From Microbacterium gubbeenense DSM 15944 (GTDB taxonomy: Bacteria; Actinomycetota; Actinomycetes; Actinomycetales; Microbacteriaceae): a stretch of 64,000 bases of DNA. The DNA lies in assembly GCF_000422745.1 (NCBI RefSeq), contig NZ_AUGQ01000012.1, forward strand, positions 1-64,000, written 5' to 3'. Made by a program: the position numbers and the translations under genes. The notes beneath the pieces were generated by a model that had not been told where the DNA came from, did not search any database, and saw only the letters and a program-made list of their open reading frames with translations. Shown here piece after piece: positions 2,801 to 25,642 of this stretch (positions are counted from its first letter, which is position 1; every line of letters begins with the position of its first letter).

Positions 2801-3826
2801 ATGGCAACTCTGAGCGACGTCGCCGCGCGGGCCGGGGTCTCGGTTTCAGCGGTATCCCGAGTCTTGAGCGATGCGCCGGAGACACGCGTCAGTGACGAGA
2901 CGCGAGAGCGGATCAAGCAGGCTGCCCGCGATCTCGACTACCGTCCGAACTCGGCCGGTCGAGCGCTGCGGTCAGCGCGCTCAAACGTTATTGCGCTCGT
3001 GGTGCCGGATCTCATCAATGCGATCTTCATCGAGCTTGTGCGCGGGGTCGAGGATGCCGCGATCCAGCATGACTATCTCGTCCTGATGGGGCGCACGGAA
3101 GACCTCGAGCCCGGCGACGAGCGGGCGCGCAAACTCCTCGGCGAGGGCCGCGTCGACGCACTCCTGTTGCAACCGGGCGACCGGCCGAACGTCGTCGACG
3201 CGATCGCAGGATTCGCCGAACAGAAGCCGGTCGTCATCCTCAATTCCGTCGAGGCGAACACGCCGGGATCCGCCACGATGCCCGACGATGTTGGCGCGCG
3301 CGTCGCCGTGCGACACCTGATCGACCTTGGACACGAGCGCATCGCCTTCGCCGGCGGCGTGCCCGAGAATCCGACCAATGTGCGCCGCGAGTGCGGCTTT
3401 CGTTCCGAGATGGCGTCGGCGGGGCTGGGCGTCAATCCGGATCTCGTCACGTCGTTCGGTTATACGGCCGTCGATGGTGAGCAGGCGGCCGATGCGCTGC
3501 TGAGCGACGAGCGCCGACCGACCGCGATCTTCGTCGCGAACGTGAACGCGGCTATCGGCCTGCTGGCCCGCGCCCGCCGTCTTGGCGTTGCGGTTCCGGG
3601 CGATGTGTCGGTGGTGGCGTTGCACGACTCGTGGACCGCCGAGAACTCGTGGCCCCCGCTGACGACCGTGAAGATGCCGTGGTACGAGCTCGGACGCCGC
3701 GCGTTCGGCGAGGTGCATAGCCGAATACAGGGCGAGGATCCGTCGGGCATCGTCGTGGATGACCCCACTCCCCGTCTCATCGCGCGCGAATCGACCGGGC
3801 CGATCGACCCGGGCCGAAGGCCCTAG
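2801..3826 (+). CDS. LacI/GalR-family transcriptional regulator
   Basis: This 341-residue protein begins with the LacI helix-turn-helix (TLSDVAARAGVSVSAVSRVL) and hinge (RPNSAGRALRSARSNVIALV). A periplasmic-binding-protein-like effector domain follows from about residue 60 to the end. The gene lies directly upstream of the CoA transferase operon, separated by a promoter with a CG-centred palindrome of LacI type, so control of that operon is the natural reading. The effector is unknown; the operon suggests an organic acid or its CoA ester rather than a sugar. A start further upstream is open but would lack the canonical N-terminus. Confidence 0.9.
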   Translation: MATLSDVAARAGVSVSAVSRVLSDAPETRVSDETRERIKQAARDLDYRPNSAGRALRSARSNVIALVVPDLINAIFIELVRGVEDAAIQHDYLVLMGRTEDLEPGDERARKLLGEGRVDALLLQPGDRPNVVDAIAGFAEQKPVVILNSVEANTPGSATMPDDVGARVAVRHLIDLGHERIAFAGGVPENPTNVRRECGFRSEMASAGLGVNPDLVTSFGYTAVDGEQAADALLSDERRPTAIFVANVNAAIGLLARARRLGVAVPGDVSVVALHDSWTAENSWPPLTTVKMPWYELGRRAFGEVHSRIQGEDPSGIVVDDPTPRLIARESTGPIDPGRRP

Positions 3827-3837
3827 CGGGTCGCCTC

Positions 3838-3866
3838 TTGTGCACTGCGCGGATCGTGTGCATAAT
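3838..3866 (+). promoter_or_regulatory. Promoter of the CoA transferase/MaoC operon
   Basis: TTGTGC (3838-3843) and CATAAT (3861-3866) are separated by exactly 17 bases. The LacI-type palindrome begins nine bases after the -10 box, covering the expected start point. Confidence 0.6.
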
Positions 3867-3874
3867 TACGTGAG

Positions 3875-3884
3875 CAAACGTTTG
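3875..3884. promoter_or_regulatory. LacI-type operator CAAACGTTTG
   Basis: This perfect 10-base palindrome has the central CG typical of LacI/GalR operators. It sits at the transcription start region of the operon and 48 bases after the lacI-type gene. Binding there would block initiation. Confidence 0.6.
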
Positions 3885-3999
3885 AGCGAACGTGGTGCTG
3901 TTCACAGAAGAACCACCCATTCACCAGCCGTGGGAGCAATCAATCGATTGTCTCGCCAGGCCGCTGAACCTGGCGAGCCCATCGAAGTGGAGAAGACAA

Positions 4000-5187
4000 G
4001 TGGAAGACCACGTAGACAGGCCGTTGGACGGAATCACGGTCCTGGATTTCAGCCAGTTCCTGGCGGGTCCGGTCGCGGCGATGCGCCTCGCGGACCTCGG
4101 CGCGCGCGTCATCAAGATCGAGCGCCCGGGCACCGGCGACATCGGCCGCACCCTCGCGTTCGCGGGCAGCGTTGCCGATGAAGAGACGGTGTCGTTCCAC
4201 GCGATGAACCGCAACAAGGAGGGCATGACAGCGGATCTGAAGAATCCCGCCGACCTCGACCGCGTGAAGGATCTCATTGCGCACGCCGACGTCATCGTGC
4301 AGAACTTCCGTCCCGGCGTGATGGAGCGCATCGGGCTCGACTACGAGTCGGTGCGCGAATTGAATCCGCGCCTCGTCTACGCGAGTGCGACCGGGTACGG
4401 CAACGACGGCCCGTGGAAGGATCGCCCCGGGCAGGATCTGCTCGCGCAGTCGCTCTCCGGTCTGCCCTGGTTGAGCGGATCCGGGCATCAGGGGCCCGTG
4501 CCCGTCGGTCTGTCGATCGCGGATCACCTGACGAGCTGCCATATCGCGCAGGGTGTGACGGCGCTGCTGCTGCGCCGCGAGCGCACCGGGAAGGGCGGGC
4601 TCGTCGAGACGAGCCTGCTCGAGGCGATGCTCGACCTGCAGTTCGAGATGCTGAGCGTGCACCTGAACGACCCCTCGGTCACGGTCGCGCGCGGCGGTGA
4701 CCGGTCGGGGCACGCCTTCCTCGCGGCACCGTACGGCACGTACCCCACGGGCGACGGATTCCTCGCGCTCGCCATGAACCCGCTCCCGAAGCTCGGCGAG
4801 CTGCTCGGCATCGACGAGCTGATCACGTTCACCGAGGACGAGGCGTGGTCGAAGCGCGACGAGGCCGAGGGGCTGCTCGCGGCGCATCTAGCGACGAGGC
4901 CCACGCAGGATTGGCTCGACATTCTCGACGCCGCCGACGTCTGGTGCGCGCCGGTGCTCACGCTCGAAGAGCTCGTGGCGCACGACGGGTTCTCCGCGAT
5001 CGACATGGTGCAGGAGGTCGAGCGCGGCGGATCGCTCACCCGGTCCGGTGAGCAGCTCACCCTGAAGACGACCCGCGGTCCGCTCCGCGTCGACGGTCAC
5101 ACCCTGACGAGCGACGTCGCCTCACCGAAGCTCGGCCAGCACGACGCCGCGCTCCGCGAGGAGTTCGGGTGGGAGGCCGGGGCATGA
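4000..5187 (+). CDS. Family III CoA transferase (CaiB/BaiF type)
   Basis: The 395-residue protein has the family III signature: LDGITVLDFSQFLAGPVAAM at the N-terminus, LGARVIKIERPGTGD, MNRNKEG, and a C-terminal PVLTLEE segment. These enzymes move CoA between carboxylic acids; the catalytic aspartate is normally in the segment that reads GQDLLAQSLSG here. The GTG start at 4000 has GGAG seven bases upstream and gives the usual family N-terminus; a start at 3892 adds an unrelated extension. It is the first gene of a three-gene operon and its stop overlaps the next start (ATGA). Confidence 0.88.
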   Translation: MEDHVDRPLDGITVLDFSQFLAGPVAAMRLADLGARVIKIERPGTGDIGRTLAFAGSVADEETVSFHAMNRNKEGMTADLKNPADLDRVKDLIAHADVIVQNFRPGVMERIGLDYESVRELNPRLVYASATGYGNDGPWKDRPGQDLLAQSLSGLPWLSGSGHQGPVPVGLSIADHLTSCHIAQGVTALLLRRERTGKGGLVETSLLEAMLDLQFEMLSVHLNDPSVTVARGGDRSGHAFLAAPYGTYPTGDGFLALAMNPLPKLGELLGIDELITFTEDEAWSKRDEAEGLLAAHLATRPTQDWLDILDAADVWCAPVLTLEELVAHDGFSAIDMVQEVERGGSLTRSGEQLTLKTTRGPLRVDGHTLTSDVASPKLGQHDAALREEFGWEAGA

Positions 5188-6311
5188 CCGTGCTGCGGGG
5201 CATGACGTGGGACCACCCGCGCGGCTACGAGTGCATCGTCGCGGCCTCGGCCGAGTATGCGCGCACGACCGGCGTCGAGATCCGCTGGGAGAAGCACCCG
5301 CTCAGCGCCTTCGAAGAGGCGCCGATCGAACAGCTCGCCGCACACAACGACCTCATGGTCATGGATCATCCGCACATTCCGCAGGCGGCCGAGGCGGGGG
5401 CGTTCGCGCCGCTCGACGGGCACGGTCACGACGACGCCCTCGCTGCGCTCGCCGCGCAGTCGGTCGGTGCCTCGCACGCCACCTACGCCTATGACGGCCG
5501 CCAGTACGGTCTCGCGACGGATGCCGCCGCCCAGGTGGCCGTGTACCGCCCTGATCTCATCGCGGATCCGCCGCGCGACTGGGATGCCGTGCTCGAGCTC
5601 GCCGCGGAGGGCCGGGTCGTCTGGCCGTCGAATGCAGTGCATGCGCTGTCGAGCCTCGTGACACTCACCGCGAACGACGGTGCCCCTCCGACGAGCGAGC
5701 CCGGCGTCTTCCTCGACGAGGAGGCCGCGCGGGGCGCGCTCGAAACCATGCACCGCCTGGCCGAGCTGGTCCCGCAGGAGAACCTGTCGCAGAACCCGAT
5801 CGATGTGGCCGAGATGCTCGCGACGAGCGACACCTACGTCTATGCACCGCTGTCCTACGGGTACGTGAACTATTCACGACCGGGCTTTCGCGCGAACCGG
5901 CTGCAGCACATCGACATCCCGGCGGGCGCATCGGGCGTATCGGGGTCGCAGCTCGGCGGAGCGGGGATCGCCGTGTCGGCCTCAGCGCGAGATCTCGACG
6001 CCGCGCGCGCGTTCGCGATCTGGCTCGCGTCGCCCGACGTGCAGCGCGGGGTCTACTACGACGGCGGCGGCCAGCCCGGTTACGCCCCCGCGTGGGACGA
6101 CGACCGGCTGAACGATGACAGCCTCGACTTCTTCCGCGGCACTCGGGCGACCCTCGAGGGGGCCTCGGTGCGGCCGCGGTTCAGCGGCTGGCCCGAGTTC
6201 CAGAACTGGGCATCGGTCTGGGCGAACCAGGCCCTGCGCCGCGAGATCACCGACGAAGAACTGCTGCGCCGATTCCGGGACGCGGCCGAAGAACTGTTGA
6301 CGAGGGACTGA
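5184..6311 (+). CDS. Substrate-binding-protein-fold protein without signal peptide
   Basis: The 375-residue sequence resembles family 1 extracellular solute-binding proteins: [12 protein letters not shown] near the start, [23 protein letters not shown], and a late [20 protein letters not shown] segment. However, the N-terminus (MTVLRGMTW) has no signal peptide or lipobox, and no transporter genes are nearby. It overlaps the CoA transferase by ATGA and ends one base before the MaoC gene, so the three products are co-translated. It is probably cytoplasmic. It may bind the acid substrate or a CoA ester, but its function is unknown. Confidence 0.75.
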
Positions 6312-6312
6312 C

Positions 6313-6768
6313 ATGCGATTCGAAGACCGTTATTTCGACGACTACGAGGTCGGCGAGACGCGCACCACGACGGGGCGCACGATCACCGAGGCCGACATCG
6401 TCACGCACGCCGGGCAGACGGGTGACTTCTTCCCGCACCACATGGACAAAGAGTGGGCCGCAACTCAGCCCTTCAAGAAGCGCATCGCGCACGGCACGCT
6501 CGCCATGTCGATCGCGGTGGGGCAGACGGCCGGCGACATCAACCCGCAGTCGATGAGCTACGGGTACGACCGCGTGCGCTTCATCGCGCCGGTCTTCATC
6601 GACGACACGATCACCGTCACCGCCGAGATCACGGCCAAGCGGGACCACGCCAAGCGTCCGGACGAGGCCGGCTACGTCGATGAGCTCGTCAGCGTCGTGA
6701 ATCAGGACGGGCAGACCGTGCTCGTGCTCACCCACATCTATCTCGTGAACAAGCGCATCGCGGCCTGA
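6313..6768 (+). CDS. MaoC-like (R)-specific enoyl-CoA hydratase
   Basis: This 151-residue hot-dog-fold protein has the MaoC elements: [23 protein letters not shown], with the catalytic D and H, and [16 protein letters not shown]. It would hydrate or dehydrate a short acyl-CoA made by the upstream CoA transferase. The start follows the previous stop by one base. A hairpin terminator closes the operon directly after it. Confidence 0.85.
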
Positions 6769-10658: not shown

Positions 10659-11321
10659 ATGGTCACCGTTGAGCAGCAGTCCCCCGGGAAGGCGAGCGAT
10701 CGCGCGTATGCGACGCTGCTCGACGAGATCCAATCCGGTACGCTGCCGGCCGGCGCTGTGGTCGCCGAGGCCGAGCAGGCCGCTCGGCTCGGCGTGAGCC
10801 GCACGCCGATGCGCGAGGCGCTCCGCCGCCTCGCCACCGACGGCCTGATCGTGCAGCAGTCGCCGCGCGTCACGGTCGTCGCGGGCATCGACAAAGCCGA
10901 TATTCGCGCCCTGTTCGAGATCCGCCGCGCGCTCGAAGAGTCGGCCGCCCGGCTTGCCGCTGAGCGCGGCGATGCGGCCGTGTTCCGCGCGATCGCCGAC
11001 GAGCTTGCGGGCGTGCACCTCGAGAGGGACGCCGACCGCGACCGGTACTACGAGCTCATCGGCCGGCTCGACCGGGCGATCGACGACGCCATCGCCAACG
11101 ACTACATCGCATCCGCTCTCCGCACGGTGCGCGCCCACCTGGTGCGCGTCAGGCGCCTGGCGCGCGACCACCCCGAGCGGCTCGCGGCGTCCGTCGCAGA
11201 GCACCGCACGATCGCCCGGGCGATCGCCGACCGCGACGGATCCCTCGCTTCCCATGCGACGCACGTGCACCTGCACAACGCGCTCGCGAGCATTCTGCAG
11301 AACCCCGACATCGAAGGATGA
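10659..11321 (+). CDS. GntR-family (FCD-type) regulator of the propionate operon
   Basis: The 220-residue protein has an N-terminal winged helix ([40 protein letters not shown]) and an all-helical FCD effector domain ([44 protein letters not shown]). It is the first gene of the prpDBC-thiolase operon and its end touches the prpD start, so it very likely senses a methylcitrate-cycle intermediate or propionyl-CoA. A few bases upstream is a TGTATACA palindrome. Confidence 0.88.
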
Positions 11322-11323
11322 CC

Positions 11324-12850
11324 ATGACCGTCTTGCACCCTGTTCGCACGTACCGCAGCGACGAGAACCTCCCCCACGACGAGCAGCTCGCATGGAAGAT
11401 CGCCCAGGTGGCCGTCGATCCGGTCGAGGTCGAAGAAGCGGTGACGGAGATGATCATCAACCGCGTGATCGACAACGCCGCCGTTGCGGCGGCGTCGCTG
11501 ACCCGCGGCCCGATCTGTTCGGCACGCGCGCAGGCGCTCGATCACCCCGTCTCGCGCGGCGGTGACGGATCCACGATCTTCGGTCTTCCGCTCGGCACCT
11601 GCACGAGCCCCGAGTGGGCGGCGTGGGCGAACGGCGTCGCGGTGCGCGAACTCGATTACCACGACACCTTCCTCGCGGCCGAGTACTCGCACCCCGGTGA
11701 CAACATCCCGCCGATCCTCGCCGTCGCCCAGCACGCCGGATCCGACGGCCGCGCGCTCGTGCGCGGCATCGCGACCGGCTACGAGATCCAGATGGACCTC
11801 GTGCGCGCGATCAGCCTGCACAAACACAAGATCGACCACGTCGCCCACCTCGGCCCGTCGGCCGCGGCCGGCATCGGCACCATGCTCGGCCTCGACGCCG
11901 AGGTGATCTTCCAGGCCGTGAGCCAGGGCCTGCACACGACGACGGCCACGCGGCAGTCGCGCAAGGGCGAGATCTCGACGTGGAAGGCGCACGCCCCGGC
12001 CTTCGCGGGCAAGATGGCCGTCGAGGCGGTCGACCGTGCGATGCGCGGCCAGACCTCGCCATCGCCCATCTACGAAGGTGAAGACGGCGTCATCGCCTGG
12101 CTGCTCGACGGACCCGAGGGCCGCTACGAGGTGCCGCTGCCCGCCCCCGGCGAGCCCAAGCGCGCGATCCTCGACTCGTACACGAAGGAGCACTCGGCTG
12201 AGTACCAGGCGCAGGCATGGATCGACCTTGCGCGCCAGCTCGGCACCGACCGCCCCGAGCTGCGCGACCCCGCGAACATCTCGAGCATCGTGCTGCACAC
12301 CTCCCACCACACGCATGTGGTGATCGGATCCGGATCCGGCGACCCGCAGAAGTACGACCCGACGGCGTCGCGCGAGACGCTCGACCACTCGATCCCGTAC
12401 ATCTTCACCGTTGCGCTGCAGGACGGCGGCTGGCACCACGTCGACTCGTACGCCCCCGAGCGCGCGGGCCGCACCGACACGGTCGAGCTGTGGCACAAGG
12501 TCACGACGGCGCTCGACGAGGAGTGGACGCGCCGCTACCACTCGGAGGACCCGGACGAGAAGGCCTTCGGCGGCCGCGCCGAGATCACGCTCACGGACGG
12601 ATCCACCGTGACGGCCGAGATCGCCGTCGCCGACGCGCACCCGCTCGGCGCGCGCCCCTTCGCCCGCGCGAACTACGAGAACAAGTTCCGCCTGCTGGCC
12701 GAGCCGGTCCTCTCGTCCGAGGAGATCGAGCGCTTCCTGAGCCTCGCCGCTCGCCTGCCCGAGCTGACGCCGGCCGAGGTGCGCGAGCTCTCGATCGTCG
12801 CCAACCCCGGAGTGATCGACGCCGCCCCGAGCCCGAAGGGTCTGTTCTGA
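11324..12850 (+). CDS. prpD: 2-methylcitrate dehydratase (MmgE/PrpD family)
   Basis: The 508-residue protein shows the PrpD pattern: [60 protein letters not shown] and [16 protein letters not shown]. It dehydrates 2-methylcitrate to 2-methyl-cis-aconitate in the cytoplasm. The ATG at 11324 is used because AAGG lies six bases before it; an ATG at 11318 overlapping the GntR stop is also possible. It overlaps prpB by one base (TGATG). Confidence 0.95.
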
Positions 12851-13752
12851 TGTTGAACGCGACTGTTCCGGCCCATGTGAAGCGGCAGAAGTTCCGGGAG
12901 AAGCTGGAATCCGGGGAGCTCCTGCGCTTCCCCGGCGCCTTCAACCCGCTGTCGGCCCGCCTCATCGAGCGCAAGGGCTTCGAGGGCGTGTACATCTCGG
13001 GCGCCGTGCTGTCCGCCGATCTCGGGCTGCCCGACATCGGCCTCACCACGCTGACCGAGGTTGCTGACCGCGCCGCGCAGATCGCGCGGATGACGGATCT
13101 GCCCGCGATCGTCGACGCCGACACCGGCTTCGGCGAGACGATGAACGTCGCGCGCACGATCCAGACGCTCGAGGACGCCGGGCTCGCCGGGTGCCACATC
13201 GAGGACCAGGTCAACCCGAAGCGCTGCGGCCACCTCGACGGCAAGGAGGTCGTCGACGAGGAGACGGCCCTCAAGCGGATCCGCGCGGCGCGCGACGCCC
13301 GCCGCGACCCGAACTTCCTCATCATGGCGCGTACCGACATCCGCGCGGTCGAGGGCCTCGACGCGGCGATCGATCGCATCCGGAAGCTCATCGACGCCGG
13401 CGCCGACGCGATCTTCCCCGAGGCGATGAAGAACCTCGACGAGTTCCGTGCCGTTGTGGAGGCCGTCGACGTGCCCGTGCTCGCGAACATGACCGAGTTC
13501 GGAAAGAGCGACCTGTTCACCGTGGACCAGCTGCGCGAGGTCGGCGTGCGCATGGTGATCTGGCCCGTCTCTCTGCTGCGCATGGCGATGGGGGCTGCAG
13601 AACGCGCCCTCGACACGCTGATCGACGAGGGTAACCTCGAGAGCCAGCTCGGAACGATGCAGCACCGGGCCGACCTCTACGACCTGATCGACTACGAGTC
13701 GTACAACCAGTTCGACTCCGGAATCTTCAACTTCCAGATCACGAAGGAGTGA
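12850..13752 (+). CDS. prpB: 2-methylisocitrate lyase
   Basis: This 300-residue member of the isocitrate lyase/PEP mutase superfamily has the active-site loop KRCGH (KKCGH in most homologues), PAIVDADTGFGE for metal binding, and ARTDIRAVEGLDAAI. It splits 2-methylisocitrate into pyruvate and succinate. It is tightly coupled to prpD and prpC, with one base and a few bases of spacing. Confidence 0.95.
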   Translation: MLNATVPAHVKRQKFREKLESGELLRFPGAFNPLSARLIERKGFEGVYISGAVLSADLGLPDIGLTTLTEVADRAAQIARMTDLPAIVDADTGFGETMNVARTIQTLEDAGLAGCHIEDQVNPKRCGHLDGKEVVDEETALKRIRAARDARRDPNFLIMARTDIRAVEGLDAAIDRIRKLIDAGADAIFPEAMKNLDEFRAVVEAVDVPVLANMTEFGKSDLFTVDQLREVGVRMVIWPVSLLRMAMGAAERALDTLIDEGNLESQLGTMQHRADLYDLIDYESYNQFDSGIFNFQITKE

Positions 13753-13754
13753 GC

Positions 13755-14939
13755 ATGTCCGAAGACATCAAGAAGGGTTTGGCCGGCGTCATCGCTGACA
13801 GCACAGCGGTCAGCAAGGTGAACCCCGAGACCAACAGCCTGCTCTACCGCGGATATCCCGTGCAGGAGCTCGCACAGACCCAGCCCTTCGAGGCGGTCGC
13901 CTATCTGCTCTGGAACGGCGAGCTGCCGACCGATGAGCAGCTCGCGGCCCTCCGCGAGACGGAGCGGAAGCACCGCGCTCTCGCGCCCGAGGTGAAGGCT
14001 GTCATCGACGGCCTCCCGCTCGAGGCACACCCGATGGACGAGCTGCGCACGGCGCTCAGCGCGATCGGCGCGAGCGACACGGCCGGATCCGCGTCCGTAC
14101 TCGACTCGACGGGGACGCCCGAAGAGAACCTCGAGCGCAGCGTTCGCCTGTTCGCGGCGCTCCCGGCGATCGTCGCGTACGGCCAGCGCCGTCGACGCGG
14201 CGAGTCCAGCATCGAGCCGCGCAGCGACCTCGACTACTCGGCCAACTTCCTCTGGATGACGTTCGGTGAGGAAGCCCATCCGGCGGTTGTCGACGCGTTC
14301 AACCGCTCGATGATCCTGTACGCAGAGCACTCGTTCAACGCCTCGACCTTCACGGCGCGCGTGATCACGTCGACGATGAGCGACCTGTACTCGGCCGTCG
14401 TCGGTGCGGTCGGTGCACTGAAGGGCCCGCTGCACGGCGGTGCGAACGAGGCCGTGCTGCACATTTTCGACGAGATCGGTTCCGCCGACAATGTCGTCCC
14501 GTGGCTCGACAAGGCGCTCGCCGAGAAGCGCAAGATCATGGGCTTCGGACACCGCGTGTACAAGCGCGGCGACTCGCGCGTGCCGACGATGAAGGCCGCG
14601 CTCGACACGCTCATCGAGCACTACGACCGCCGCGATGTCGAGGCGCTCTATGACACGCTCGAGAGCGAGTTCGTGAATCGCAAGGGCATCTATCCGAACC
14701 TCGACTACCCGTCGGGGCCGGCGTACAACCTGATCGGCTTCGACACCGTGACGTTCACGCCGTTGTTCGTCGCCTCGCGCGTGACGGGCTGGACGGCGCA
14801 CATCCTCGAGCAGCAGGCGTCCAACGCGCTGATTCGCCCGCTGTCGGCGTACAACGGCCCCGACGAGCGCCACATCGACGGGTACGTTCCGTCCGAGGCC
14901 GAGCTCGACGCGGCGAACCGCGAGGAGGAGTCGGCGTGA
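13755..14939 (+). CDS. prpC: 2-methylcitrate synthase
   Basis: The 394-residue citrate-synthase-family protein has GPLHGGANEAV with one catalytic histidine, GFGHRVYK with the second, and the PrpC-like end YPSGPAYNLIGFDTVTFTPL with the catalytic aspartate. The operon and these motifs point to 2-methylcitrate synthase, condensing propionyl-CoA with oxaloacetate. AAGGAG lies five bases before the ATG at 13755. The stop overlaps the thiolase start (GTGA). Confidence 0.93.
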   Translation: MSEDIKKGLAGVIADSTAVSKVNPETNSLLYRGYPVQELAQTQPFEAVAYLLWNGELPTDEQLAALRETERKHRALAPEVKAVIDGLPLEAHPMDELRTALSAIGASDTAGSASVLDSTGTPEENLERSVRLFAALPAIVAYGQRRRRGESSIEPRSDLDYSANFLWMTFGEEAHPAVVDAFNRSMILYAEHSFNASTFTARVITSTMSDLYSAVVGAVGALKGPLHGGANEAVLHIFDEIGSADNVVPWLDKALAEKRKIMGFGHRVYKRGDSRVPTMKAALDTLIEHYDRRDVEALYDTLESEFVNRKGIYPNLDYPSGPAYNLIGFDTVTFTPLFVASRVTGWTAHILEQQASNALIRPLSAYNGPDERHIDGYVPSEAELDAANREEESA

Positions 14940-16266: not shown

Positions 16267-16692
16267 GTGAAAGCTGCGCTCATCAATACGATCGCGACGC
16301 CGTACGAGTTGGCCGACGTCGAGGTCGGAAGCCCGACCGGTCGTGAGGTGCTCGTCGAGGTGAAGGGCTCCGGCCTGTGCCACAGCGACCTGCATCTCGC
16401 CGATAACGACTACGGCATGCCGCTGCCGCTGATGCTGGGCCACGAGATCGCGGGTGTCGTAACGGAAGTCGGCCCCGATGCCACGATGGTTAAGGTCGGC
16501 GACCACGTCGTCGCATGCGTTGTCCCGTCGTGCGGGCGCTGCGTGCCGTGCTCTCTCGGCAACCCGACGGCGTGTGAGAACGCCGGGTCGTTCGGGCGCG
16601 ACGAAGGAGCACCCGCGCGGTACACCCGCGACGGGGAGCCGGTCACGCAGGCGTTCGGCATCGGCGGATTCTCCGAGTATGTGCTCACGCAT
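16267..16692 (+). pseudogene. Zinc-dependent alcohol dehydrogenase, only the N-terminal 142 residues
   Basis: From a GTG with GGGAG upstream, the frame encodes a medium-chain dehydrogenase N-terminus: KGSGLCHSDLHLADNDYG (catalytic zinc cysteine and CHSD), LPLMLGHEIAGVV, and the structural zinc loop with C at PSCGRCVPCSLGNPTAC. After GFSEYVLTH the similarity stops abruptly, and the frame continues as arginine- and proline-rich sequence that reads a transporter gene in the wrong frame. The NAD-binding half is missing. The start region and ribosome site are intact, so the deletion seems recent. Confidence 0.85.
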
Positions 16693-17377
16693 CGGCGAGC
16701 GGGTCCACGCGACCGCGGCGGATCGACTGGCTCAGGTCCGGCACATCCTCCCAGTCGTCGTACTGATCGCCGCCGTTCTCGGTGGTATCTATTCGGGCGT
16801 CACGACGGTCACGGAGGCGTCCGCGCTCGGTGCGCTCGGGGCACTCGTCCTCGCGCTGATCTACCGCGGCCTGACGTGGCGCTCGCTCTTCGAGGCGCTC
16901 AAGCGCACGGTGTGGGTGACGGCGATGATCATGGCGATCGTCATCGGCGCGAACATTCTGTCGTTCGGCCTCGCGACCACCGGAGCGGCCCGGGCCCTGA
17001 CCGCGTGGGTCACCGCGTCGGCGCCGTCGGTGGGCGTCTTCCTCCTGCTCGTGTTCGTCCTGCTGTTCGTGCTCGGCATGTTCATGGAGGGGCTGTCCAT
17101 GATGATGCTCACGATGCCGATCCTGTTCCCGCTGCTTCAGGCCTACGACGTGAACATGGTGTGGTTCGGAGTCGTGCTGGTGGTGCTCATCGAGGTCGGC
17201 CTCATCACCCCGCCCGTCGGCATGAATCTCTTCGTATTGCAGGGCGTCACGGGCGAGAAGATCAGCACGATCGCGCGCGGCGCGGTGCCGTACCTCATCA
17301 TCATGCTGGCGTTCGTCGGGCTGCTCTGGGCGTTCCCCGCGATCGCGATGTGGTTGCCGAACGCGATGGCGTCGTGA
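16693..17377 (+). pseudogene. TRAP transporter large permease (DctM), C-terminal half only
   Basis: In frame 2 the sequence ERVHATAADRLAQVRHILPV, GIYSGVTTVTEASALGA, FVLGMFMEGLSMMMLTMPIL and IEVGLITPPVGMNLFVLQ matches the second half of DctM/SiaT permeases, ending at a TGA at 17375. About 228 of the usual 430 or so residues remain. There is no start codon or ribosome site of its own. The N-terminal half, and presumably the DctP and DctQ partners, were removed by the same deletion that truncated the alcohol dehydrogenase. Confidence 0.88.
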
Positions 17378-24291: not shown

Positions 24292-25518
24292 TCAGCGTTC
24301 CGTCGCGCCGGATTCGGAGACGGCTCCCGCGGCGACGAGCGAGGCGATCGCGTCGCCGTCGATCCCGAGCCGTTCGGCCAGCACTTCGGCCGTGTGCTCG
24401 CCCACGGAGGCGAGTCCGTCGTAGACCGGGCCGTCGTATCCGTCCATGTGCAGAACGGGGCCCGGAACGAGGGCGCCCGCGCCGAGCGGCGTCGACGTGA
24501 CGGCCGACAGGGTGCGCTCGAGGAAGTGCGGATCGCCGACGATGTCGCTCGAATCGTTGACTCCCGCCGCGACGACCTCGTGCGCGTCGAGGATCGCGAG
24601 CACCTCGGGGCGCGGCATGGACGCGACCCACTCGCGCACGGTCTGCTGCACGATCTCATTGTTCGCCATGCGCGCCTCGTTCGTGGCGTAGCGGGGGTCG
24701 TCCTTGAGGTCGCTCCGGCCCATCGCATCGAACAGGCGCATCGCGATCGACTGCGCCGATGCGGCGATCGACAGCCAGCCGCCGTCGGAGGCCTGGTAGA
24801 TGCCACGGGGGCTCGCGGCGCCGGAGGCGTTGCCGTGGCGCTGCATGATCTCGCCCGTGGTGGTGTAGTTGAGGATCGCGTCGCCCAGGATGAACATCAG
24901 CGGTTCGTGCAGCGCGACGTCGACGACGGATCCCTCACCCGTCGCGGAGCGGCGGTACAGCGCCATCGCGGATCCGAACGCGGCGGAGATGCCGGCGATC
25001 GAGTCGGCGAATCCGAACGGCGGGGCCGTGGGCGGCGTCTCGGGCCAGCCGTTGAGGAAGGCGAATCCGCTCGTCGTCTCCGCGACGGTGCCGAAACCGG
25101 GGCGCGCCTTGTACGGCCCCGTCTGGCCGAAGCCGGAGACCCGTGTGAGGATCAGACCGGGGTTGTCCGCGGCGAGCGTGTCGTAGTCCATGCCCCACTT
25201 CTCGAGACGACCGGGGCGGAAGGATTCGATGACGATGTCCGACTGGGCGATGAGGTCGCGGACGACCTTCTGGCCCTCGGCGGAGCGCAGGTTCACGCCG
25301 ACCGAGCGCTTGCCGGAGTTCAGTCGGACGTATCCGATCGACTGCCCGTCCTTCTGCGGCTGCCATTGCCGAGCCATGTCGCCCGCGTTCGGGTCTTCGA
25401 CCTTGATGACGTCGGCGCCGAAGTCGCGCAGCATGCGGCCCGCGGTCGGGGCGGCATACATGGATCCGAGTTCGAGAACCTTGACCCCGGCGAGCGGAGC
25501 AGTACGTGTATTCGTCAA
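24292..25518 (-). CDS. Family III CoA transferase
   Basis: The 408-residue protein has the CaiB/BaiF layout: PLAGVKVLELGSMYAAPTAG, FGADVIKVEDPNAGDM, LNSGKRSVGVNL, and GFGTVAETTSGFAFLNG, which holds a glutamate at the position of the family's catalytic aspartate. It probably activates the carboxylic acid that feeds the acyl-CoA cluster. The TTG at 25516-25518 has AAGGAAG seven bases upstream and gives a family-like N-terminus. Confidence 0.87.
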   Translation of the reverse strand: MTNTRTAPLAGVKVLELGSMYAAPTAGRMLRDFGADVIKVEDPNAGDMARQWQPQKDGQSIGYVRLNSGKRSVGVNLRSAEGQKVVRDLIAQSDIVIESFRPGRLEKWGMDYDTLAADNPGLILTRVSGFGQTGPYKARPGFGTVAETTSGFAFLNGWPETPPTAPPFGFADSIAGISAAFGSAMALYRRSATGEGSVVDVALHEPLMFILGDAILNYTTTGEIMQRHGNASGAASPRGIYQASDGGWLSIAASAQSIAMRLFDAMGRSDLKDDPRYATNEARMANNEIVQQTVREWVASMPRPEVLAILDAHEVVAAGVNDSSDIVGDPHFLERTLSAVTSTPLGAGALVPGPVLHMDGYDGPVYDGLASVGEHTAEVLAERLGIDGDAIASLVAAGAVSESGATER

Positions 25519-25642
25519 GATGGCACTTCCTTGTGCGTGTCGATCGCGGTAGCGCGGAGGGAAGCGGCGGGTCGCATTCGCGGCCTGCATGACTGATACT
25601 AATGATAGTCAGGAATTACGTCGGATGCGAGGAGGCGTCAGA

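Follow-up and report, generated by a model that had tools for sequence, protein, structure and literature searches.

A predicted CoA-transferase/cytosolic binding-protein unit of sugar-acid catabolism in Microbacterium gubbeenense and other bacteria

Introduction

What does a protein with the fold of a sugar-import receptor do in the cytosol, encoded between two enzymes of coenzyme A (CoA) chemistry? The question is raised by an operon of Microbacterium gubbeenense DSM 15944, located at 2801–6768 on the plus strand of the 64,000-nucleotide stretch analysed here (the window; positions 1 to 64,000 of contig NZ_AUGQ01000012.1, assembly GCF_000422745.1). A first-pass annotation had described it as a LacI-controlled operon of a CoA transferase, a binding-protein fold and a MaoC hydratase, and Pfam matches, coordinates and operator sites all confirm this description. 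From the sequences, a structural model and the gene neighbourhoods of relatives, the operon most likely represents a widespread CoA-transferase/cytosolic binding-protein unit of sugar-acid catabolism. We propose, with a probability of about 0.4, that the class III (CaiB/BaiF) CoA-transferase, hereafter CaiB, makes the CoA thioester of a sugar acid presented by the cytosolic solute-binding protein (cSBP), and that the hydratase dehydrates this thioester.

Results

Operon structure

All four proteins of the operon exceeded Pfam cut-offs in a profile scan. The gene for the LacI-family repressor (341 aa; 2801–3826; PF00356 and PF13377) is followed by those for CaiB (4000–5187), which matched PF02515 with 329 bits over residues 9–381 (cut-off 23.3), cSBP (5184–6311), whose matches to PF13416 (67 bits) and PF01547 (53 bits) place it in the family 1/8 solute-binding-protein fold, and a MaoC-type enoyl-CoA hydratase/dehydratase (6313–6768; PF01575, 87 bits). 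NCBIfam cut-offs (for CaiB, that of an equivalog model) were reached by none of the four. The stop codon of CaiB and the start codon of cSBP share the bases ATGA, a 4-nt overlap at 5184–5187, and a 1-nt gap separates cSBP from MaoC, in agreement with the earlier claim that the middle protein is translationally coupled between two CoA enzymes. Genome-wide profile searches of the host (3.02 Mb in 74 contigs) returned one cSBP and three CaiB genes; cSBP is among the 18 matches to SBP_bac_8.

A cytosolic binding protein with a conserved cleft

The AlphaFold2 model of cSBP (mean pLDDT 95.7, pTM 0.92) has its first strand at residues 3–9 and aligns over the whole length to mature exported solute-binding proteins (SBPs), the protein beginning directly with the mature fold. 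In fold searches (Foldseek was also run) the Z scores were 37.4 for MalE3 and SmoF, 37.1 for TMBP and 36.8 for LpqY, with 354–366 residues aligned, and none of the best 50 matches of each search was an enzyme. The absence of a signal peptide was judged from this model and from the distance between the chosen start codon and the invariant first-loop tryptophan, which is at most 22 residues in 95 of 95 cSBP loci and leaves no room for an export signal in any homologue, as the first-pass annotation had supposed for the window protein. These data suggest that cSBP is cytosolic and forms a family of its own. It matches the CUT1 solute-binding family model and has the CUT1 fold, without room for an export signal; in the window and most relatives it adjoins CaiB and a hydratase rather than permeases, and importers near cSBP loci carry an exported SBP of their own (L106, and L208 in the host genome). 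In two actinobacterial loci (L117 and L119) a MalG-like permease gene precedes cSBP, with CaiB 2.4 kb downstream in L117.

The cleft of cSBP is conserved and appears to be of the sugar-binding type. Residues D61, G259 and R330 correspond to Asp80, Gly334 and Arg404 of LpqY, as matched by motif in the alignment; in LpqY these contact the buried glucose, and Arg404 is essential (PMC7949145). The three residues are kept in 37 alignment rows chosen without the motif, of which one is gapped at D61 and which include two proteins twice. Among 59 non-redundant cSBPs, 46 of which entered the fold alignment, 29 columns are invariant and several of them polar. The first loop carries the invariant pattern W9-x-H11-x-R13-G14; H11 and R13, both invariant, and the near-invariant H62 add positive charge, which would suit a carboxylate. 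cSBP thus resembles CUT1 SBPs such as MalE3, SmoF, TMBP and LpqY in its whole-length fold and in the three ligand contacts, and differs from them in lacking room for a signal, in having a CoA-transferase rather than a permease as partner, in the replacement of LpqY N134 by A115, and in its first loop.

A second binding-protein family, SBP2, likewise without room for a signal, was found in loci L033, L036, L038, L043, L103, L214 and L215. Its gene follows directly after a second CaiB gene in Rufibacter and two Persicobacter, and lies within the locus on a Croceibacterium plasmid and in metagenome-assembled genomes of Acidobacteria (L103) and Nocardioides (L043). SBP2 scores up to 96 bits against exported proteins of rhizobial loci and only weakly against cSBP (28 bits at best). 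In the haloarchaeon Halostagnicola, an SBP2-like protein is encoded with a CoA transferase, an AMP-binding ligase, MaoC, a Gfo protein, a mutarotase and a fucosidase.

Pairing of cSBP with CaiB

CaiB lies within 250 bp of cSBP, always on the same strand, in 79 of the 88 loci whose flanks each measure 1.4 kb or more; the seven short-flank loci excluded from the 95 include six with an adjoining CaiB. The nine loci lacking CaiB at this distance are L042, L058, L068, L087, L100, L102, L107, L117 and L119, and in three of them (L058, L107 and L117) CaiB lies 0.9–2.4 kb downstream on the same strand. Where CaiB is upstream, an exact 4-nt overlap of the cSBP start with the CaiB stop is possible in 69 of 72 loci. 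With the starts chosen, the same overlap occurs in six of eight non-redundant loci with reversed gene order (L002, L033, L036, L038, L093 and L114; not L067 or L108), and the coupling has therefore outlasted the change of gene order. A scripted search of the 95 loci for CaiB and cSBP joined in a single frame, which would have hinted at contact between them, gave none. As a control, CaiB, MaoC and crotonase genes were found in 0 of 27 short loci of exported SBPs (taken from the Actinomycetota matches of at most 45.1 bits), several of which show permeases.

A search that started from CaiB in 297 genomes of the order gave 27 matches. cSBP adjoins CaiB in 12 of 12 units in which MaoC follows (type I, the window included), in 11 of 12 with a crotonase (type II), and in none of the three more distant matches. 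Together with the 79 of 88 loci above, this result shows the genes to be linked rather than scattered. A tree of 74 CaiBs groups the type I set in a clade with 100/100 support. Since members of this clade were sampled by the presence of cSBP, the CaiB-first survey is the only independent evidence for the pairing. Because long branches meet in the tree, it was used only for the type I clade and for the nested place of L157. A CaiB of the host genome without cSBP is nested in it among type II genes that bear cSBP, most simply suggesting a loss of cSBP. One stretch of the host genome (L143, C2:44000-62000) contains a type II CaiB gene directly followed by those for a crotonase and an FAH protein and lacks cSBP, a state that the tree explains most simply by loss; Gfo, SPIE, MR/MLE and importer genes also belong to this locus. 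The divergence of CaiB and cSBP is correlated (r = 0.90 for 60 pairs and 0.94 for 49 type I pairs, the latter reached in 0 of 2000 permutations), a measure confounded by shared ancestry.

Asp175 of CaiB, which we take to be the catalytic residue by comparison with Asp169 of formyl-CoA transferase, is invariant in 45 aligned CaiBs. These are 45 of the 52 listed references; L031 (frame split), L043 and L098 (contig edge), L090, L092, L099 and L105 were omitted. In L031 (8860-9989, Sinorhizobium meliloti 1021 pSymB) CaiB is split over two frames, and in strain ml21 (L041) it is one open gene.

Distribution

cSBP is found far beyond Microbacterium. In 296 Actinomycetota genomes, 42 had a match, comprising three cSBPs of more than 150 bits and a remainder of at most 45.1 bits, and 145 plasmid records had a match. 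Motif scanning across 84,980 species genomes yielded at least 578 confirmed relatives, of which the best 80 were kept; these best 80 come from Actinomycetota, Alphaproteobacteria, Phycisphaerae, Acidobacteria and Dormiibacterota, and plasmids add Bacteroidota and Variovorax. The three-gene unit, for which the first-pass annotation had proposed a search in Actinomycetota and Proteobacteria, is conserved in Actinomycetota, Pseudomonadota, Bacteroidota and other groups. The habitats of the hosts, partly taken from organism names, are presumably soil, root nodules and water. Six uncultured Alphaproteobacteria (L067, L071, L075, L079, L082 and L083; AG-/AH- isolates, which we assume to be marine single-cell genomes) have the unit, MaoC and MR/MLE genes and, where the stretch reaches, also a mutarotase and an importer.

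Two unit types with unrelated hydratases

The 23 cSBP matches in the 297 genomes divide into 12 units of the order CaiB-cSBP-MaoC (type I), 11 of which are followed by an amidohydrolase, and 11 of the order CaiB-cSBP-crotonase-FAH (type II). Both types thus pair the CoA-transferase with a family of acyl-CoA dehydratases, and the exchange of MaoC for a crotonase, an unrelated enzyme, gives the best indication that the real intermediate is a CoA thioester. The Asp and His of the TGDFFPHH pattern are present in 62 of 63 MaoC matches, and both Glu were seen by eye in six of six type II crotonases; we take these to be the catalytic residues. Many type I loci encode an extra, longer MaoC that keeps the Asp and lacks the His (HPYV in 48 of 49), for example at 8079-8819 of L106, upstream of CaiB; it is perhaps a structural, non-catalytic partner subunit. 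The solved structure nearest to the window MaoC is PDB 4ffu (164 bits), which is labelled 'oxidase' and is probably the MaoC of such a system.

A predicted LacI regulon

Two predicted LacI operators lie between the repressor gene and CaiB, GAGCAAACGTTTGAGC at 3872–3887 and AATCAATCGATTGTCT at 3938–3953 (pattern CAAWCGWTTG at 3941). They follow a candidate promoter on the plus strand (TTGTGC-17-CATAAT, 3838–3866; hexamers at 3838 and 3861), which was picked out by eye and whose hexamers a sigma-70 consensus scan did not detect. The core CAAACGTTTG at 3875–3884 is the sole match in the window at up to one mismatch, with 0.25 expected; at least one match arose in 23 of 100 shuffles, and the window alone is therefore no proof of an operator. 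In the whole genome, CAAWCGWTTG occurs at three places, all on this contig (3875, 3941 and 70279), and the reversed-pattern control at none. Related loci share its placement: the pattern lies 36–105 bp upstream of the CaiB match in 11 (L046–L056), precedes another CaiB gene in L044 and L045, and is absent from L043 and L057, being present in 13 of the 15 loci L043–L057. It is also found upstream of amidohydrolase or MR/MLE genes in L049, L050, L052, L053, L054 and L056, and 12 of the loci L044–L056 encode LacI proteins scoring 229–362 bits against that of the window. The operator site noted in the first-pass annotation is thus corroborated by the genome-wide placement, the control and the 11 relatives.

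The third place, contig position 70279, lies outside the window at a distance of 66 kb and precedes genes for an amidohydrolase, whose nearest NCBIfam model is L-fucono-1,5-lactonase (below cut-off), a binding protein whose signal, judged by eye, resembles that of lipoproteins, two permease-like proteins and a Gfo protein. The predicted LacI regulon would accordingly consist of the CaiB operon and this lactonase-importer-Gfo operon, with palindromic sites at the target promoters. The statement that no transporter is nearby holds for the immediate surroundings of the operon; since the operator pattern also precedes the lactonase-importer-dehydrogenase operon, the system as a whole is not without a transporter. 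On the same ground, the window operon would be the CoA half of the regulon, whose other half looks like one that imports and oxidises a sugar.

Sugar-catabolic context

Neighbours were labelled by phmmer; of the 63 loci whose flanks both exceed 8 kb, 52 contain an amidohydrolase, 45 MR/MLE, 42 Gfo and 36 a member of the L-rhamnose-mutarotase family, and CUT1 importer parts were present in 39–42 each. L-Fucono-1,5-lactonase is again the nearest model of the L106 amidohydrolase, below cut-off. GH95 genes occur in L209, where the gene overlaps the chosen CaiB start by 4 nt, and in L210; a GH106 rhamnosidase follows CaiB in Croceibacterium, and alpha-L-fucosidases lie near the loci of Persicobacter psychrovividus (by annotation) and Halostagnicola.

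Type II loci L211, L212, L213 and L049 share a KDP-dehydratase-like FAH protein and one kind of aldehyde dehydrogenase (PF00171 in L211, L212 and L213); L213 encodes an epimerase, an SDR protein, CaiB, cSBP, crotonase, FAH and aldehyde dehydrogenase. In L037, the FAH protein scores 421 bits against 9kkt and 56 bits against 2-keto-3-deoxy-D-arabinonate dehydratase 2q18, and some KDP dehydratases belong to the COG3970 FAH proteins (PMC6336799).

Discussion

Class III CoA-transferases are known from CoA-cycling dehydration systems, with CaiB/CaiD acting on carnitine and FldA/FldBC on phenyllactate. The unit described here likewise pairs such a transferase with a dehydratase or hydratase; it differs in its sugar loci, in the predicted action of MaoC or crotonase at C3, and in the additional cSBP. 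CaiB belongs to the same family as formyl-CoA transferase and succinate-HMG CoA-transferase (PDB 10uh and 9br6), which share the catalytic Asp and score 288–291 bits against the CaiB profile; for these enzymes, the portions of the literature covered mention no partner with a binding-protein fold. By gene content, type II loci resemble the Weimberg route (route II) and route III (PMC6336799) in encoding a dehydrogenase, a KDP-dehydratase-like FAH protein and, in some of the loci, an aldehyde dehydrogenase, and differ from them in CaiB-cSBP-crotonase and in the lack of a recognised aldonate dehydratase in the L213, L035 and L037 stretches. The main text of PMC6336799 contains no word beginning 'CoA'. 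A CoA thioester of a sugar acid, deoxyribonyl-CoA, has been proposed for the CoA-bound deoxyribonate pathway in Klebsiella michiganensis, which supports a sugar-acyl-CoA reading; that pathway differs in employing a CoA-synthetase, a dehydrogenase and a thiolase, and 'solute-binding' does not occur in the sections of text available (PMC6365646). We found no account of CaiB with a cytosolic binding protein in the open-access literature, although one may exist elsewhere, and the part of PMC9007349 covered has nothing on the pairing.

Based on these comparisons, we propose the following hypothetical multistep scheme, in which the operon would serve to activate the acid with CoA in a sugar-acid pathway that is oxidative and non-phosphorylating: (i) LacI would repress the operon together with the distant importer/lactonase/Gfo-type dehydrogenase operon; (ii) an imported sugar would be oxidised by Gfo to a lactone, which is opened to the sugar acid; (iii) cSBP, a maltose-binding-protein (MBP) fold in the cytosol, would hold the sugar acid in its cleft as a subunit of CaiB or a docking partner for it, a complex suggested by the coupling; (iv) CaiB would transfer CoA onto the sugar acid to give the thioester; (v) MaoC, or the crotonase in type II, would remove the 3-hydroxyl as water; and (vi) the product CoA ester would, by analogy with known CoA-cycling systems, probably hand its CoA to the next sugar acid, CoA being catalytic. 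The earlier suggestion of an undescribed acid utilisation pathway is partly supported; the neighbours of the operon make a sugar acid more likely than a generic organic acid, and the type I ligand may be an acid resembling those of L-fucose or L-rhamnose.

L-Fuconate and L-rhamnonate are 3R acids, D-xylonate and L-arabinonate 3S acids, and MaoC would correspond to the 3R and crotonase to the 3S configuration. We tentatively, and with considerable doubt, extend the proposal to the following scenario: a sugar-binding protein of the ABC-importer family would have been recruited to the cytosol, where it captures the substrate as a subunit of a CoA-transferase, with the hydratase it would form an undescribed CoA-cycling sugar-acid dehydratase whose hydratase class follows the configuration at C3, and SBP2 would have been recruited likewise in CaiB loci of Bacteroidota and a haloarchaeon.

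Several observations weigh against the proposed CoA-dependent dehydration of a sugar acid. The main difficulty is a dehydratase of the enolase superfamily (MR/MLE). Its gene is present in 45 of 65 type I loci, and such an enzyme could produce the 2-keto-3-deoxy acid with no need for CoA. Of the 20 type I loci without it, 12 have stretches that end before its usual place, and therefore only eight are informative (L033, L036, L038, L044, L045, L058, L095 and L103); these eight, together with L209, L210 and the host regulon, suggest that MR/MLE lies outside the core. The host genome has seven MR/MLE matches elsewhere, and type II loci L211 and L212 contain an MR/MLE gene as well. The lack of a recognised aldonate dehydratase, among the called genes of L213 in 19.5 kb and in the annotation of L035 and L037, comes from phmmer labels and Pfam scans of called genes and not of every frame. 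An aldehyde dehydrogenase was not found in the stretches of L035, L037, L040 and L143, nor an FAH gene in that of L040; in the host, the regulon shows neither a recognised FAH nor a recognised aldolase that could serve later steps, and no GH95 match was found in the genome. In 396 Actinomycetota, only three of 12 CaiB matches have cSBP and nine lack it, the cSBP-less CaiBs being mostly more distant and beside a crotonase, with one of them in the host genome. Finally, the invariance of W9, H11, R13, G14, D61 and P63 in the genome_contigs loci was partly selected by the scan motifs.

The role of cSBP could also be another than presenting the substrate. As a cytosolic sensor or allosteric regulator, it would bind the pathway acid and switch CaiB, and its intact, highly conserved cleft, its pairing and its co-divergence with CaiB (confounded, as noted, by ancestry) would be expected in this case too. 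Some CaiB-crotonase units lack cSBP and evidently can do without it, which fits a regulator. We nonetheless consider this role unlikely, since a LacI (or IclR) regulator would already sense the substrate and the exact 4-nt coupling in 69 of 72 loci suggests equal amounts of the two proteins, which would better fit a catalytic subunit. Enzymes on related binding-protein folds do exist, among them thiaminase I and chorismate dehydratase, and the 29 invariant columns, several of them polar, would accommodate a catalytic cSBP acting on the sugar acid or its CoA ester through His11, Arg13, Asp61, Asp113, Gln297 and Arg330. That cSBP is itself such an enzyme is, however, distinctly improbable: D61, G259 and R330 are ordinary ligand contacts in the exported relative, the best 50 fold matches per search are binding proteins, MBP fusions and MBP designs, and with A115 in place of Asn134 no new acid or base is seen at that position.

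The substrate, too, could be of another kind. The CoA enzymes might act on an acid that is bound by cSBP and that was set free from an acylated glycoside or aglycone after import, a scenario to which the sialate and acetylxylan esterase genes near the Rufibacter locus and the AMP-binding ligase of Halostagnicola lend some credit. It is nevertheless unlikely, as the nearest folds bind sugars, the type II gene content resembles a sugar oxidation route, and neither thiolase nor acyl-CoA dehydrogenase is annotated in six locus stretches; the Labrenzia stretch has a thiolase beside aromatic-ring genes. Descent from exported sugar-binding proteins, evident in fold and sequence, would also allow cSBP to be a decayed transport protein that lost its signal and travels in the operon without function. 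We rejected this explanation as extremely improbable on grounds of conservation: 95 of 95 members across phyla lack signal room, and open frames, cleft and coupling are all conserved.

If cSBP, as we propose, presents sugar acids to CaiB as an enzyme subunit, it would be an example of a transport receptor converted into a component of a cytosolic enzyme, and many bacteria would be predicted to form sugar-acid CoA thioesters routinely when they break down sugars oxidatively. In public records cSBPs carry the names 'extracellular solute-binding protein' or 'ABC transporter substrate-binding protein'; such names mislead for a conserved family this large (at least 578 relatives).

Additional features of the window

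A further class III CoA-transferase (362 bits) is encoded on the minus strand at 24292-25590, adjoined by SDR- and crotonase-like frames and without cSBP. Genes of the 2-methylcitrate type lie at 11318-14939: PrpD scores 846 bits against the NCBIfam model PrpD_hiGCgrampos (cut-off 950), the frames after it resemble PrpB and PrpC by eye, and a GntR gene lies upstream; the operator pattern of the CaiB operon is absent there. What looks like a deletion junction between two genes lies at 16267-17374, where a zinc alcohol dehydrogenase sequence (N-terminal domain, PF08240) passes, out of frame, into that of a TRAP DctM permease (C-terminal half, PF06808, profile positions 207-413).

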